60,819 nucleotides of DNA from Gammaproteobacteria bacterium (GTDB lineage Bacteria; Pseudomonadota; Gammaproteobacteria; Steroidobacterales; GCA-2729495). The position numbers and the translations under genes are program-made. Within the stretch, counting starts at the first letter, position 1. Every line of letters begins with the position of its first letter. The stretch covers positions 1 to 60,819 of the forward strand of contig JAHDYM010000007.1 of NCBI GenBank assembly GCA_023383705.1, in the 5' to 3' direction. Of the stretch, positions 9,839 to 15,506 are shown piece by piece. Below the pieces are notes generated by a model. That model worked only from the letters and a program-made list of their open reading frames with translations, did not search any database and was not told the origin of the DNA.

Positions 9839-11596
9839 ATGACCACGGTGTCCCGGGCAGTGTCGTGCGTATTTTTCGCTTTCATGGCGATGGCGCCGGC
9901 GGTCGTCGTGGCCGACTATCGCGGCGATATCGGCTACACGAAACTGCAGCAGGAACTTGGCAGTGCCATCCCGGATGGTACAGGCATACGGGTTACGCAA
10001 GTTGAAGGCGATGAACTGGTCAATGGCCAGAATGCCTGGTTTCCCGACCCGGCCAATGCGGAGTTTGCCGGCAAGACCATCAGCAATGCCTCCGGTGCAC
10101 CGGCAGGGTTGTATTCAAGCCATGCCACCAGTGTCGGTGGCAGCTTTTACGGCAACATGCGTTCGATCGCGCCGGGCGTCAGCAATATCTCGGCTTTCTC
10201 CGCCGGTGACTGGATGGGTGGAGGTGCATTGCTGACGGTGGTCGGTAGCGGTGGCAGCAGGCCACTGTCATCGACGAGCCGCGTTGCGAATCACAGCTAT
10301 GTCGGCAGTGCGCCGGGTGCCGAGACCTATGTACTCCGGCGCGTCGACTGGCTGGTCGAAACCGACGAATACCTGCAGGTGGTCGGTCTCGGCAATGGTG
10401 CCGGTACCAGCTCACTTGCCCTGCTCGGTTCTGCCTACAACGTGATTGCCGCCGGCCGTACCGACGGCCAGACCCGGCTCGGTTCGGTTGCGCTGGATGA
10501 AACGTACACCGTGGGCCGCACGCGACCGGATCTGGTTGATCCCTCGGATTACACCAGCACCGCCGCGCCGCGCATCGCTTCAGCAGTAGCCATGCTGGTA
10601 CAGGCCGGGCACGACAACCCGGCGTGGTCCAGTGACCCGGTGACCACCAGCATGACGAACCGGGCTGGCGTACTGGTGCGCAATGCAGAACGCACGGAGG
10701 TCATCAAGGCTGTGCTGATGGCTGGTGCTGATCGCCTTACCCACGACAGCACCTCGGCGGATTTGCTGAACTATCGTCGTAACGCAACCGATCAGACGGC
10801 CAATGGCCTGGATCGCCGTTTTGGCGCCGGTCAGCTCAATGTACGCAACAGCTACTGGATCCTGGCGGCGGGCGAGCAGGGCAGTGCCGAGGACGGCAAT
10901 GCGGCAGCACATGTCGCCAGCCGCGGTTTTGACTATGACCCCGGCTTTGGCGGCGGGTCGGGCAGCAATTCAGTCGCGACCTATCCACTGCCAATCGATG
11001 CACAGCCACAGCTGCTGACTGCCGCGCTGGTCTGGAATATCGACATCAACGGCGGAACTGCCAACACCTTCAATCCGGCTGCAACCTTGCGTGACCTGAA
11101 TCTCGAAGTCATCAATGTGGGCGAGGCCGGCAGCCCGCTGATCGCGGCTTCACGGAGTACGGTCGAGAACACCGAAAACATCTGGATGGTCGTACCTGCC
11201 GGCGCGCAATATGCGCTGCGCGTAACACGGGTGGGTTCGTTCCGCTGGGATTACGGTCTGGCCTGGCAGTTGCTCGCCGACCAGGATGCTGATGGCGCGC
11301 ATGACGGCCAGGACAACTGCGTCGATGCCGCCAACGGCCCCTGGCTGCCGGATGCGGGCGGCAACAGCCAGCTGGATACCGATGGTGATGGTTATGGCAA
11401 CATCTGCGATGGCGACCTTGATAACAGCGGCGGTATCGTAAACTACGGCGACCTGGCCGCCTTCAAGGCGATGTTTGGAACTCCGAGCGCAAATGGCGAC
11501 CTCAACGGCAGCGGCGGTATCGTCAATTTTGCGGACCTGGCACGGTTCAAGGCCCTGTTCGGCAAACCGCCTGGACCTTCTGCACTCAAGCCCTGA
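9839..11596 (+). CDS. Secreted subtilase-like protein with altered catalytic Asp and dockerin-like C-terminus
   Basis: The 585-residue product begins with a signal peptide (hydrophobic VFFAFMAMAPAVVV, then Ala-Asp). A subtilase-like domain follows, but the Asp block reads RVTQVEG, putting Glu56 where the catalytic Asp belongs. His95 (SSHATSVGG), Asn151 (NHSYVG) and Ser240 (TSTAAP) keep the other positions. After a beta-rich region come calcium-binding thrombospondin type 3-like segments and two near-identical repeats of the form GDLxxSGGIVNxxDLxxFKxxFG, which look like dockerin or type 3 repeats. It is probably secreted and calcium-bound, with weak or no protease activity. The start is uncertain: an in-frame ATG at 9806 is also possible. 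Confidence 0.72.
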   Translation: MTTVSRAVSCVFFAFMAMAPAVVVADYRGDIGYTKLQQELGSAIPDGTGIRVTQVEGDELVNGQNAWFPDPANAEFAGKTISNASGAPAGLYSSHATSVGGSFYGNMRSIAPGVSNISAFSAGDWMGGGALLTVVGSGGSRPLSSTSRVANHSYVGSAPGAETYVLRRVDWLVETDEYLQVVGLGNGAGTSSLALLGSAYNVIAAGRTDGQTRLGSVALDETYTVGRTRPDLVDPSDYTSTAAPRIASAVAMLVQAGHDNPAWSSDPVTTSMTNRAGVLVRNAERTEVIKAVLMAGADRLTHDSTSADLLNYRRNATDQTANGLDRRFGAGQLNVRNSYWILAAGEQGSAEDGNAAAHVASRGFDYDPGFGGGSGSNSVATYPLPIDAQPQLLTAALVWNIDINGGTANTFNPAATLRDLNLEVINVGEAGSPLIAASRSTVENTENIWMVVPAGAQYALRVTRVGSFRWDYGLAWQLLADQDADGAHDGQDNCVDAANGPWLPDAGGNSQLDTDGDGYGNICDGDLDNSGGIVNYGDLAAFKAMFGTPSANGDLNGSGGIVNFADLARFKALFGKPPGPSALKP

Positions 11597-11623: not shown

Positions 11624-13504
11624 GTGACCCGCAGCAGCCGGAGTCCGCACGGTCCCGCTCCGGGGCCAGCACCGCCACCGCCGCCCGGCCTGCTGAACAG
11701 GCTCGGCCTGAATTTCTCGGTACTTCGCTATAGCGGACGCGCGATCCGGCTGGTCTGGGAAACGAACCGCCAGCTGGCGCTGGCCCTGGCGGCGCTGACG
11801 GTTGCCACCGGCGTGTTGCCAGCGGTAGCAGCATGGGTCGGCAAGCTCGTCATCGACGCAATCGTCCTGCAGATGGATCTCGTCAAAGGTGGCGCCGCAC
11901 CCGTCTATGCAGATGTCCTCGAACTGGTGGTTGTCGAGGCAGCGGTCATCGCACTGCTGGGGGCGGCTCAACGGGGCATCAGTGCCTGCCAGTCGCTCCT
12001 GCGTGCACAACTCGGGCAGCGGGTCAACGAACTGATACTCGACAAGGCCCTGACCCTGGACCTGACGCAGTTCGAGGATGCGGGGTTCTACGACAAGCTG
12101 ACGCGTGCGCGGCGAGAGGCATCCAGCCGGCCGCTGAGCCTGGTGATGCGCAACTTCGGGCTGTTCCAGCAACTCGTGTCGCTGGTGAGTTTCGGTGTGC
12201 TGCTGGCGCAGTTCTCGCCGTGGGCTATGGCCTTGCTGGTCTTTGCGGGCCTGCCTTCCTTATTCGCAGAAACAAAATTTTCCGGTGATACCTTCCGGCT
12301 GTTCCGCGTGCGGGCACCCGAGTCACGGTTGCAGTTTTATCTGGAAACCGTACTGGCGCGCGATGACAACGCCAAGGAAGTGCAGCTGTTCCAGCTCGGC
12401 CCGCTGCTGCTCAAGCGCTACAAGAGTCTCTTCGCCAAGATCTACAGTGAGGACAAGGCGCTCACGCTCAGGCGCGAGACCTGGGGTCTGCTGCTGGGCC
12501 TGTTCGGAACGGCGGTGCTGTATGGGGCCTATGCGTGGATTGCCGTCACTGCGGTCCAGGGTCAGATCAGCATCGGTGAAATGACCATGTACCTGCTGTT
12601 GTTCAAGCAGGGGCAGGGCGCCGTGTCTGCAAGCCTGGCCTCGATCGGCGGGATGTACGAAGACAACCTGTACCTGACCAATCTCTACGAGTACCTCGAG
12701 CAGGCACCGGTCTATCGGTGGGGCACGCTGACTGCCGGCTCGGACCGCAGCGATGGCGTGCGTTTCCAGGGCGTTTCCTTCACCTATCCGGGTGCCAGCG
12801 CGCCGACGCTGAGTGACATCACCCTGCATATCCGGCCCGGCGAGAGCCTCGCCCTGGTGGGCGAGAATGGAGCAGGAAAGTCAACACTTATCAAGATATT
12901 ATGCGGATTATATCAACCTGATTCAGGAACGGTTTCGCTGCATGGACTGGAAATCCGCAAATGGGACCGGGAGGCCCTGCGCCGGCAGGTTGCCGTGATC
13001 TTCCAGGACTTCAACCGTTACCAGTTCACTGTCGGCGAGAACATCGGTGCCGGCGACGTCGAGGCATACACCGATGAGAGCCGCTGGGAAGAATCCGCGC
13101 GCAAGGGCATGGCGATGGGTTTCATCCGGAAGCTCGAGCAGGGCTTCGCCACGCAACTTGGCAGCTGGTTTCGCGGTGGCAAGGAGCTGTCCACCGGGCA
13201 ATGGCAGAAGGTTGCCCTGTCTCGGGCCTTTATGCGGGTCTCGGCAGATGTGCTGATCCTGGACGAGCCGACGGCTTCAATGGATGCGGCAGCAGAGGCC
13301 GAGTTGTTCGAATACTTCCGCGAACATACGGCGGGGCGCATGTCGATCCTGATCTCGCATCGCTTTTCCACGGTGCGCCAGGCCGACCGCATCGCCGTGA
13401 TCGAGCACGGACGCATCACCGAATATGGCACGCATGCGGAACTGCTGGCGAAGAACGGGCGCTATGCGCACCTGTTCCGGTTACAGGCGCAGGGCTATCG
13501 ATAG
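11624..13504 (+). CDS. ABC exporter, fused permease and ATPase
   Basis: The 626-residue half-transporter has six predicted membrane spans in the N-terminal half and one nucleotide-binding domain. Walker A is GENGAGKST from residue 413, the signature is LSTGQ near 522 (a variant of LSGGQ), and Walker B is VLILDEP near 543, followed by the H-loop SHRFST. The type resembles peptide and lipid exporters that act as homodimers. It begins at a GTG 27 bases after the subtilase-like gene, so the two are probably co-transcribed, and it ends 10 bases inside the convergent subtilase gene. Its substrate is unknown. A proline-rich stretch of about 20 residues precedes the first helix. Confidence 0.85.
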   Translation: MTRSSRSPHGPAPGPAPPPPPGLLNRLGLNFSVLRYSGRAIRLVWETNRQLALALAALTVATGVLPAVAAWVGKLVIDAIVLQMDLVKGGAAPVYADVLELVVVEAAVIALLGAAQRGISACQSLLRAQLGQRVNELILDKALTLDLTQFEDAGFYDKLTRARREASSRPLSLVMRNFGLFQQLVSLVSFGVLLAQFSPWAMALLVFAGLPSLFAETKFSGDTFRLFRVRAPESRLQFYLETVLARDDNAKEVQLFQLGPLLLKRYKSLFAKIYSEDKALTLRRETWGLLLGLFGTAVLYGAYAWIAVTAVQGQISIGEMTMYLLLFKQGQGAVSASLASIGGMYEDNLYLTNLYEYLEQAPVYRWGTLTAGSDRSDGVRFQGVSFTYPGASAPTLSDITLHIRPGESLALVGENGAGKSTLIKILCGLYQPDSGTVSLHGLEIRKWDREALRRQVAVIFQDFNRYQFTVGENIGAGDVEAYTDESRWEESARKGMAMGFIRKLEQGFATQLGSWFRGGKELSTGQWQKVALSRAFMRVSADVLILDEPTASMDAAAEAELFEYFREHTAGRMSILISHRFSTVRQADRIAVIEHGRITEYGTHAELLAKNGRYAHLFRLQAQGYR

Positions 13505-15408
13505 GTGGCCACTTGCCGGCGACTGCGGTACCAACCCACCCCGAACAGCAGGGCGAGCCACAGCGGATGCATGAGTCCGCCGCCACCCCCACCACCATTA
13601 CTGCCACCAGCGGAAGTGGTGTTGACCGCAACTGAAATACTGTCCTGTGCCCCGACATCATCCGTCACTGTCAGTTGCACGTTCGCCGTCCCTGCTGCTG
13701 AAACCTCCAGCGTGGCTGTTGCCTGTGTATTGGTCCCGACCAGACTGGCGGCGCTACCCGATACGCTCCACAGATAGCTCGCCACAATCCGTCCACGCGC
13801 GGCGGCGCTGGCGGTGCCGTCCAGCGTGAGGGTTTCGCCGGCCTGTGCACTACCCGGGTCGGCAATGCGTGCGATGGGTCGCAGCGCTTCGCTGATCGCA
13901 CCGGGCGCGTCTGCCATGCCGGCGCCACAGGTCGTTGTGGTGCAGTTGCACTGCAAGGTGAAGCTGTCGAGATCGGGGCAGACCGGAATGGCGGGGTCAA
14001 CCGCGGGAAACGTCCTGGCCCCGGATTTGATGCGGCCAATCATTTCGCTGTTGCTGAGTTCGCTGTTCACGGCATGGATCAGCCCGGCGATGGCGGACAC
14101 CATCGGCACGGCGAAGCTGGTGCCGATACTGCTGGTATAGGTGGGGAACCCGGGCACCGTGGTGCCGGTATTGCTGGTCGTCGCCAGCGAGAAAAGACAG
14201 GGTGGTTCCAAATTCACGCAATTACCGGCCGGTGCCGCGATGCCGACTTCCAGGCCCAGACTGCTGTAGCCGACCTTGGTGCCGATGTGTCTGAGCCCCG
14301 CGACGGCCAGCACGCCCGGACAATTTGCCGGCGAATCCACCGGACCATGGTCATTGCCGGCAGCGGCAACGACCAGAACGCCGGCCGTTTCCAGATCACC
14401 GATCACCTGCTGGTAACTGGAGGTGCACTTACCGCTGCCGCCCAGGCTAAGGTTCAGGACTTTTGCCGGTGTCGGGTTGAGCGGGGCACCGGGCACATTC
14501 AGGCCGGCCGCCCATCGCATCGCTGCAATGATGTCCGAGTCATAACCGCCACATTTTCCCAGCACCCTGACAGGGAGGATTGGCGCGTTCCAGGTCGCCC
14601 CGGCAATGCCTTCCATGTTGTCCGACATGGCACCGACAATCCCGGCAACACGCGTACCGTGCCAGGAACTCCCGGTTTCCTCACAACTGGCCAGTGGACC
14701 GCTGGCCGCTTCACTTGCGGATACCCAGTCACCCGGGTCGGAGGGATCGGTGTCCCAGCCATCGCCGTCATTGGCGCTGGCAAAACTGCTGGATGATTCG
14801 CCGGAAACAAAATCGTGGCCAGCCAGCAAACGCCCGCCGGGCACCAAGCCACTGCGGCCAAGATCCGGGTGATCGAAGCGGACTCCCGTGTCGAGTACCG
14901 CAATGACCGTGTCATTCGTGCCGGTGCTCAGATCCCAGGCGGCCGTGAAGTTCACCGCCGCGGGCTGAGCGGCCTGCAAATACCACTGATCCGGATACAG
15001 CGGGTCGGCGGGCAGGGCCTGGGCACGACGCCGCTGGTCGATCTCGACGAATTCGACTTCCGGATCGGTGCGCAGCAACTCGAGTGCCGAACCGAGTTCC
15101 GTGCCGGACAATGGCCGTTCCAGCAACAAGACGCTCAGGTCTCCCCCCAGACTCCGTGAACCGCGCTGGGCCAGGCCCAGCCGCTGACCGAGTGCGCTGA
15201 TCCGGTTGGGCGTACCATCGCCCGTTGTTTGGCCATGGATGGACTTCCGGTCGTCGGCGTGTGGCCTGAGCTTGACGATCAGGCGCGCGGTCAACTCGGT
15301 CCGGGACCCCGGATTGCCGATCAGTCCAGGCGTGGTGTTTTGCGCTGCGACAGGCAGTGCGGCGAGCATTCCAGCAGAGAGAATGGCGGGCATCCGGGCT
15401 AGGCGCAT
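13495..15408 (-). CDS. S8 family serine protease (subtilase) with GlyGly-CTERM-like anchor
   Basis: The 637-residue protein has a signal peptide ending near AAQ23, an inhibitor-like propeptide to about residue 135, and a complete catalytic triad: Asp173 (VLDTGV), His250 (HGTRVAG) and Ser431 (GTSFAVP). An Ig/PKD-like domain follows (about 525-605). The C-terminus is a Gly-run, one hydrophobic helix and then RSRR, which matches the GlyGly-CTERM sorting pattern processed by rhombosortase. It probably acts at the cell surface or is released there. The ATG at 15408 follows GGAGG; a longer frame to 15465 is less likely. Confidence 0.88.
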   Translation of the reverse strand: MRLARMPAILSAGMLAALPVAAQNTTPGLIGNPGSRTELTARLIVKLRPHADDRKSIHGQTTGDGTPNRISALGQRLGLAQRGSRSLGGDLSVLLLERPLSGTELGSALELLRTDPEVEFVEIDQRRRAQALPADPLYPDQWYLQAAQPAAVNFTAAWDLSTGTNDTVIAVLDTGVRFDHPDLGRSGLVPGGRLLAGHDFVSGESSSSFASANDGDGWDTDPSDPGDWVSASEAASGPLASCEETGSSWHGTRVAGIVGAMSDNMEGIAGATWNAPILPVRVLGKCGGYDSDIIAAMRWAAGLNVPGAPLNPTPAKVLNLSLGGSGKCTSSYQQVIGDLETAGVLVVAAAGNDHGPVDSPANCPGVLAVAGLRHIGTKVGYSSLGLEVGIAAPAGNCVNLEPPCLFSLATTSNTGTTVPGFPTYTSSIGTSFAVPMVSAIAGLIHAVNSELSNSEMIGRIKSGARTFPAVDPAIPVCPDLDSFTLQCNCTTTTCGAGMADAPGAISEALRPIARIADPGSAQAGETLTLDGTASAAARGRIVASYLWSVSGSAASLVGTNTQATATLEVSAAGTANVQLTVTDDVGAQDSISVAVNTTSAGGSNGGGGGGGLMHPLWLALLFGVGWYRSRRQVATYR

Positions 15409-15506
15409 GAATCCTCCATCAACATGGTCCCCGGAGCGACGTGGACCGGTCAGCCACGATGCCATCTCATGTACACTCGGGACATCTGCCGGTGGAGGAT
15501 ATCAGC

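Follow-up and report, generated by a model that had tools for sequence, protein, structure and literature searches.

A subtilisin-like protein with Glu in the place of the catalytic Asp and a dockerin-like tail in a gammaproteobacterium

A gene encoding a subtilase-like protein, in which Glu56 occupies the place of the catalytic Asp, was identified in the window, i.e., the whole stretch of 60,819 nucleotides analyzed here. In an alignment of 81 sequences, consisting of the window protein and 80 loci (the best 80 of 127 confirmed relatives), Glu56, His95, and Ser240 were each invariant (81/81). In the account proposed here, the product would be a serine hydrolase (probably a protease) that is exported and held at the cell surface, and it would belong to a separate KP-43-like branch with the subtilisin fold. 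Glu56 would orient His95 in the Asp's stead, His95 would activate Ser240, and the oxyanion hole would consist of Asn186 and the backbone. The thrombospondin type 3 (TSP3)/dockerin-like tail would fold through calcium and, once folded, would bind a cohesin and thus keep the enzyme on the cell surface, the receptor cohesin being anchored by exosortase via a VPLPA/PEP-CTERM tail. This account as a whole, a Glu-His-Ser surface hydrolase docking onto a cohesin, seems to us evenly balanced; catalysis, substrate, and docking are the parts of it that we infer. The features of the gene are as follows.

9839..11596, + strand: whole gene, 585 aa and stop; ATG at 9839, TGA at 11594-11596, frame open throughout
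9839..9913, + strand: signal-peptide-like N-terminus, residues 1-25; hydrophobic run by sequence reading, model helix 7-17
9914..10873, + strand: S8-like (KP-43-like) domain, residues 26-345; from the model, the 1wmd match, and a sub-cut-off Pfam S8 match
10004..10006, + strand: Glu56 in the catalytic Asp place, codon GAA
10121..10123, + strand: His95
10394..10396, + strand: Asn186, expected oxyanion Asn
10541..10558, + strand: Pro235 to Ser240, shortened segment and nucleophile
10916..11278, + strand: C-terminal beta domain, residues 360-480; model strands 362-480, within the KP-43 match
11279..11410, + strand: thrombospondin type 3-like calcium repeats; Pfam TSP_3 E=0.0011, 19.1 bits, cut-off of 25 not reached
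11411..11479, + strand: dockerin-like repeat 1, 13-residue loop
11495..11563, + strand: dockerin-like repeat 2, 13-residue loop
11564..11593, + strand: C-terminal KPPGPSALKP motif, common to dockerin-tailed relatives

Fold, family, and the invariant Glu

Judging by its N-terminus, the product is an exported protein. The AlphaFold2 model (67 rows) has a mean pLDDT of 85.7, with values above 90 across most of residues 31-480, block means of 79-99 in the S8-like domain from residue 31 on, and values mostly below 65 in the tail. The top Foldseek match was KP-43 (E 2.9e-17). In VIA-align, the KP-43 structure 1wmd gave a Z of 32.1 (rmsd 3.0, 349 aligned residues), model residues 25-478 being aligned on chain residues 2-434 so that both domains were covered; 5fax (SubHal) gave a Z of 32.0 and the next entry, 9ues, 26.3. 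The fold predicted for the window protein is that of the subtilisins, and the label "subtilase-like" in the initial annotation of this DNA, made from the sequence alone, was borne out by the KP-43 match.

Like KP-43 and SubHal, the window protein combines a subtilisin-like domain with a C-terminal beta domain and keeps the His and the Ser. It differs from them in having Glu for Asp30, a 5-residue Pro-to-Ser segment, and a dockerin-like tail, and its identity to them is 23-24%. Its match with Pfam Peptidase_S8 (PF00082) reached 17.9 bits vs. a gathering cut-off of 21.8 and was confined to profile positions 53-288, which leave out the Asp block; 18 of the 67 members of a second alignment (A2) matched this profile at E<=0.01. 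No NCBIfam family model was found for the window protein, a phmmer search against the PDB gave weak matches only, mostly with ClpP, and hhalign gave no S8 alignment between the family profile and the ordinary S8 subtilase of the window (probability 1.1). The Glu-bearing family is very probably a distinct branch, which, on the model, we read as KP-43-like.

Orthologues 83-86% identical across nearly the entire length were found in genomes of the same genus, and a search with the whole protein gave matches at E<=1e-5 in 24 of 60 related genomes, in some cases through the tail only. Among 299 genomes sampled across the phylum, the only match was in the own genome (1/299, at most five candidates per genome being scored among the matches listed), and the family is therefore thinly spread. 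The 127 confirmed relatives came from a scan of genome_contigs, a collection described by the tool as covering 84,980 species. The hosts of the best 80 of the 127 are Gammaproteobacteria, including many methanotrophs (Methylomonas, Methylobacter, Methylomicrobium), sulfate reducers (Desulfobulbus, Desulfosarcina), Nitrospira, and one planctomycete. A plasmid search yielded no match.

The substitution had initially been noticed in the block RVTQVEG, which corresponds to residues 51-57; His95 lies in SHATSVGG and Ser240 in YTSTAAP. Apart from the 81 sequences mentioned above, each of the three residues was present in 24/24 sequences of an overlapping set in which identity falls as low as 26%, and all three are among the 18 invariant columns of A2, the chance of which is roughly 5e-5. 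The Glu is, as far as the aligned sequences go, a trait of the family, and its occurrence in all 81 ruled out both an error in the sequencing and a mutation peculiar to this genome. A Peptidase_S8 search of 13 related genomes served as a control: of the 39 matches listed, one was a family member (G300:C26), and the 28 with a locus and a profile start <=6 all carry Asp (25 by regular expression and three, VIDIG, VLDGG, and LIDAG, from the printed sequence). Glu56 was equated with the catalytic Asp from the order and spacing of the motifs and from the range of the fold match rather than by superposition. The KP-43 triad is given as Asp30, His68, and Ser255 in the part consulted of PMC7471176; its acid-to-His spacing is 38, vs. 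39 in the window protein.

The tail and the cohesin-like proteins

The repeats at the C-terminus that had initially been described as almost identical, GDLDNSGGIVNYGDLAAFKAMFG and GDLNGSGGIVNFADLARFKALFG, are both present and share 17 of 23 residues and 50 of 69 bases. Their resemblance to dockerin was upheld by the sequence pattern: the tail consists of a TSP3-like stretch and two calcium-loop/helix repeats with 13-residue loops, and the model places helices at 536-546 and 564-574 with low confidence. As in type I dockerins, there are two C-terminal DxDxxGxxxxxD loop-helix repeats; the differences are the 13-residue loops, the TSP3 stretch ahead, and the PGPS behind. Pfam Dockerin_1 (PF00404) did not match the window protein at E<=1, which may be due to the length of the loops. 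Among 16 tails combining dockerin-like repeats and PGPS, the loops have 13 residues in six cases and 12 in 10.

The tails of the 81 proteins (the best 80 of 127 relatives and the window protein) were sorted by regular expression into 24 PEP-CTERM-like tails, 16 dockerin-like tails with PGPS (the window's included), 15 with dockerin-like loops of other kinds, not all of them genuine, 11 others, eight with no tail, and seven cut or frameshifted. The dockerin-like tail thus occupies the slot where relatives have VPLPA/PEP-CTERM anchors. An NCBIfam scan covering three of the 24 PEP-CTERM-like relatives gave VPLPA-CTERM scores just under the cut-off of 25.35 for L085 (23.8) and L102 (19.7) and no VPLPA-CTERM match for L104. 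In a tree of 79 rows, from which two frameshifted sequences were omitted and in which a few tails were re-sorted by eye (giving 18 dockerin and 26 PEP-CTERM), at least three changes between the two states were needed, and the sisters L100 (Methylomonas, dockerin) and L102 (Methylomonas lenta, VPLPA) were joined with an SH-aLRT of 100. The initial annotation had envisaged relatives in which the triad is normal and any likeness to dockerin is lacking, and these were found in one respect only: a normal triad occurred in none of the relatives examined, and many are without the dockerin and have a membrane-sorting tail instead.

At two loci, L035 and L061, the gene of a small protein, of one kind in both, lies about 0.1 kb from the dockerin-tailed family gene on the same strand. 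These small proteins end in a PEP-CTERM or VPLPA motif (19.4 vs. a cut-off of 16, and 27.0 vs. 25.35); Pfam Cohesin gave E=0.11 for that of L035 and no match for that of L061. The L035 protein was modeled from two rows only (mean pLDDT 66.2), and the cohesin fold was confirmed in this model, which aligned with 4uyp (Z 15.6, 134 residues) and had cohesins as 49 of the 50 structure matches listed. The predicted fold resembles noncellulosomal cohesins of Archaeoglobus (2xdh, Z 13.0) and Clostridium perfringens (2jh2, Z 12.4), from which the L035 and L061 cohesins differ in their terminal PEP-CTERM/VPLPA motifs. On contig G301:C18, two genes for cohesin-like proteins ending in PEP-CTERM come after the gene of a dockerin-tailed protein.

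Profile A4, two rows of which are the L035 and L061 proteins, matched in 22 of 60 genomes; 24 of the 30 matches listed, five of them its own seeds, end in a PEP-CTERM-like motif by regular expression (one is doubtful), and a search over the best 80 of the 127 loci matched L035 and L061 alone. Profile A5, made from A4-type matches, matched in 23 of 60 genomes including the own one. The search of the own genome for cohesins suggested in the initial annotation was answered in part: Pfam detected none (0 at E<=1), but the purpose-made profile A5 found a divergent cohesin-like protein on contig C58 (E 3.4e-33) with a VPLPA-CTERM end (32.5 bits, above the cut-off of 25.35), and four exosortase matches over the cut-off are present. 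The gene of this protein belongs to a conserved operon of its own and does not adjoin a dockerin gene. This context, and the presence of the A5 cohesin family in tail-less genomes, make it improbable that the family is just the receptor of the dockerin. A cellulosome was rejected, the own genome having no Pfam cohesin and a single copy of the window-type tail; contig C63 encodes one more Dockerin_1 protein, which belongs to a different type.

A cohesin-like match was present in 16/19 tail-bearing and 10/41 tail-less genomes among the 60 (Fisher 1.7e-5), and in 12/15 vs. 10/41 without the four seed genomes (p 3.7e-4). Within the window's family of genomes the counts were 13/14 vs. 10/23 (p 0.004), or 11/12 vs. 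10/23 without two seeds (p 0.01). None of the four tests corrects for kinship, and tails were called by eye among the matches listed; kinship, along with the seeding of the profiles from tail-bearing genomes, confounds the association. The tail-rich genomes G338 and G342 gave no cohesin-like match, and 10 genomes have a cohesin-like match without the tail.

The alternation of tails, together with a neighbouring gene whose product combines a predicted cohesin fold with an anchor motif, led us to propose that the tail may dock onto an exosortase-anchored cohesin, at a probability which we put a little short of even. Among single explanations of the tail, docking onto anchored cohesins would still be the best, less than an even chance being attached to it. 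A less probable reading, which we regard as rather doubtful, is that the Glu-His-Ser enzyme is active and that its tail is a calcium-rigid spacer or a sorting signal for dedicated machinery, with PGPS as the mark. It is consistent with the occurrence of the tail on a wide variety of proteins (G301, G338, G342, G352, and G355 gave 20-22 matches each, those of G338 and G342, 22 and 20, being mainly through the tail), with the conserved PGPS end, and with the failure to detect a cohesin in G338 and G342. However, Pfam Dockerin_1 is reached at E<=0.01 by 6 of the 67 A2 relatives, a true cohesin fold adjoins one tail, and PGPS shows neither the hydrophobic helix nor the basic terminus that known CTERM signals possess.

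The cohesin link is of interest because, according to the part consulted of PMC5244752, it is not known what dockerins and cohesins do outside cellulosomes. An exosortase-anchored cohesin adjoining a dockerin-tailed enzyme would make such a noncellulosomal role directly testable with two small proteins. A close parallel is Saccharophagus degradans, likewise a gammaproteobacterium with dockerin-like and cohesin-like ORFs (two and six, respectively) and no classical cellulosome; it differs in that the sections consulted describe neither an anchor link nor a subtilase (PMC2386152). No paper combining cohesin, dockerin, and PEP-CTERM was found in the open-licence PMC literature. In addition, a single protein of G352:C56 (L141) contains a cohesin domain followed by a TSP3 and dockerin-like tail with PGPSG, and is possibly a self-linking scaffold.

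Catalytic competence of the Glu-His-Ser arrangement

His95, Asn151, and Ser240 had initially been taken as the residues kept from the subtilases. This holds for His95 and Ser240, but Asn151 (VANHSY, in the N-x-S-W strand), although kept in 78 of the 81 sequences, is not the oxyanion Asn, which by motif order is Asn186 (GLGNG, of the GxGNxG type), present in 72/81. The distance from a conserved Pro to the Ser is exactly five residue steps in 81/81, vs. 12 to 44 (median 28) in 27 ordinary S8 domains counted by regular expression, the lowest of these counts being matches to a later Pro. The longer acid and the shortened segment before the Ser could offset each other. The Glu is located at residue 30 to 68 of the family proteins (median 53, starts picked by script), and therefore no propeptide would fit in after the signal peptide and before the catalytic domain.

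These features, i.e., the replacement of Asp by Glu, the short pre-Ser segment in 81/81, the oxyanion column without Asn in 9/81, and the missing propeptide, can also be read as those of a pseudoprotease whose fold has turned into a calcium-dependent surface binding or adhesion protein; subtilases of such a kind are known, CspC being an example in the excerpts consulted. A dead enzyme would be expected to drift, yet His95 and Ser240 are invariant, and this strict conservation, which extends to the Glu, suggests that a catalytic Glu fits better than decay. The adhesin proposed in the initial annotation is therefore not favored and appears unlikely. We consider it fairly probable, from the conserved columns, that the protein is an active hydrolase. 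That the Glu is non-catalytic and an acid from another strand faces His95 is improbable: Asp170 (80/81) and Asp30 (77/81, both in window-protein numbering) could be candidates, but Glu56 occupies the position of the Asp motif, at a KP-43-like spacing from the His.

In the S53 family, Glu takes the place of His. The window protein resembles the S53 sedolisins in combining a subtilisin-like fold with an active-site Glu, and kumamolisin (1sn7) was at Foldseek rank 25. The sedolisin triad is Ser-Glu-Asp (PMC11593635, part consulted); the window family differs in keeping the His and in having its Glu at the Asp position, and does not show this triad. The portion consulted of the same 2024 survey names just two triad types, and no paper on a subtilase with Glu-His-Ser, or on subtilisin D32E, was found in the open-licence PMC literature; for a subtilisin-like protein with a residue replaced by Glu, the one paper retrieved was a review on PCSK9. 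A natural branch with an invariant Glu-His-Ser would add a third type and would allow the accommodation of an acid one methylene longer to be tested. The broadest reading, namely a third triad type of the subtilisin fold, with a shortened pre-nucleophile segment across phyla, joined to a display on Gram-negative cells via dockerin and exosortase-anchored cohesin, amounting to a cellulosome-like protease display without a cellulosome, is a speculative one that we think unlikely to hold in full.

Gene neighborhood

An MsbA-like ABC exporter gene (11624-13504, + strand) begins 27 bases past the stop codon of the Glu-bearing subtilase, with which it is possibly co-transcribed; an exporter gene of this type also comes after the family gene at L030. 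An ordinary S8 subtilase (13495-15465, - strand; 146 bits) is encoded about 2 kb downstream of the Glu form; it has Asp-His-Ser and a PKD domain, and its Gly-rich end is GlyGly-CTERM-like. A similar gene lies close to the family gene at L030 and on G303:C20.

No conserved operon was found for the family across the 80 loci (the best 80 of 127 relatives) by BLAST clustering of the neighbours. The widest neighbour groups were proteins rich in dockerin-type tails (9/80 loci) and TPR-repeat lipoproteins (8/80, including L089, L095, L097, L105, L107, and three others), the latter presumably resembling PrsT, a component of the PEP-CTERM system. The cohesin-like VPLPA gene comes after a FecR-like gene both in the own genome (G000 C58, L153), where a TPR-like protein is encoded upstream, and in G315 (L156), these labels having been assigned by eye. 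The L037 and L039 relatives end in GYVCGxCHAxxG, with a heme-binding-like CxxCH at the extreme C-terminus.
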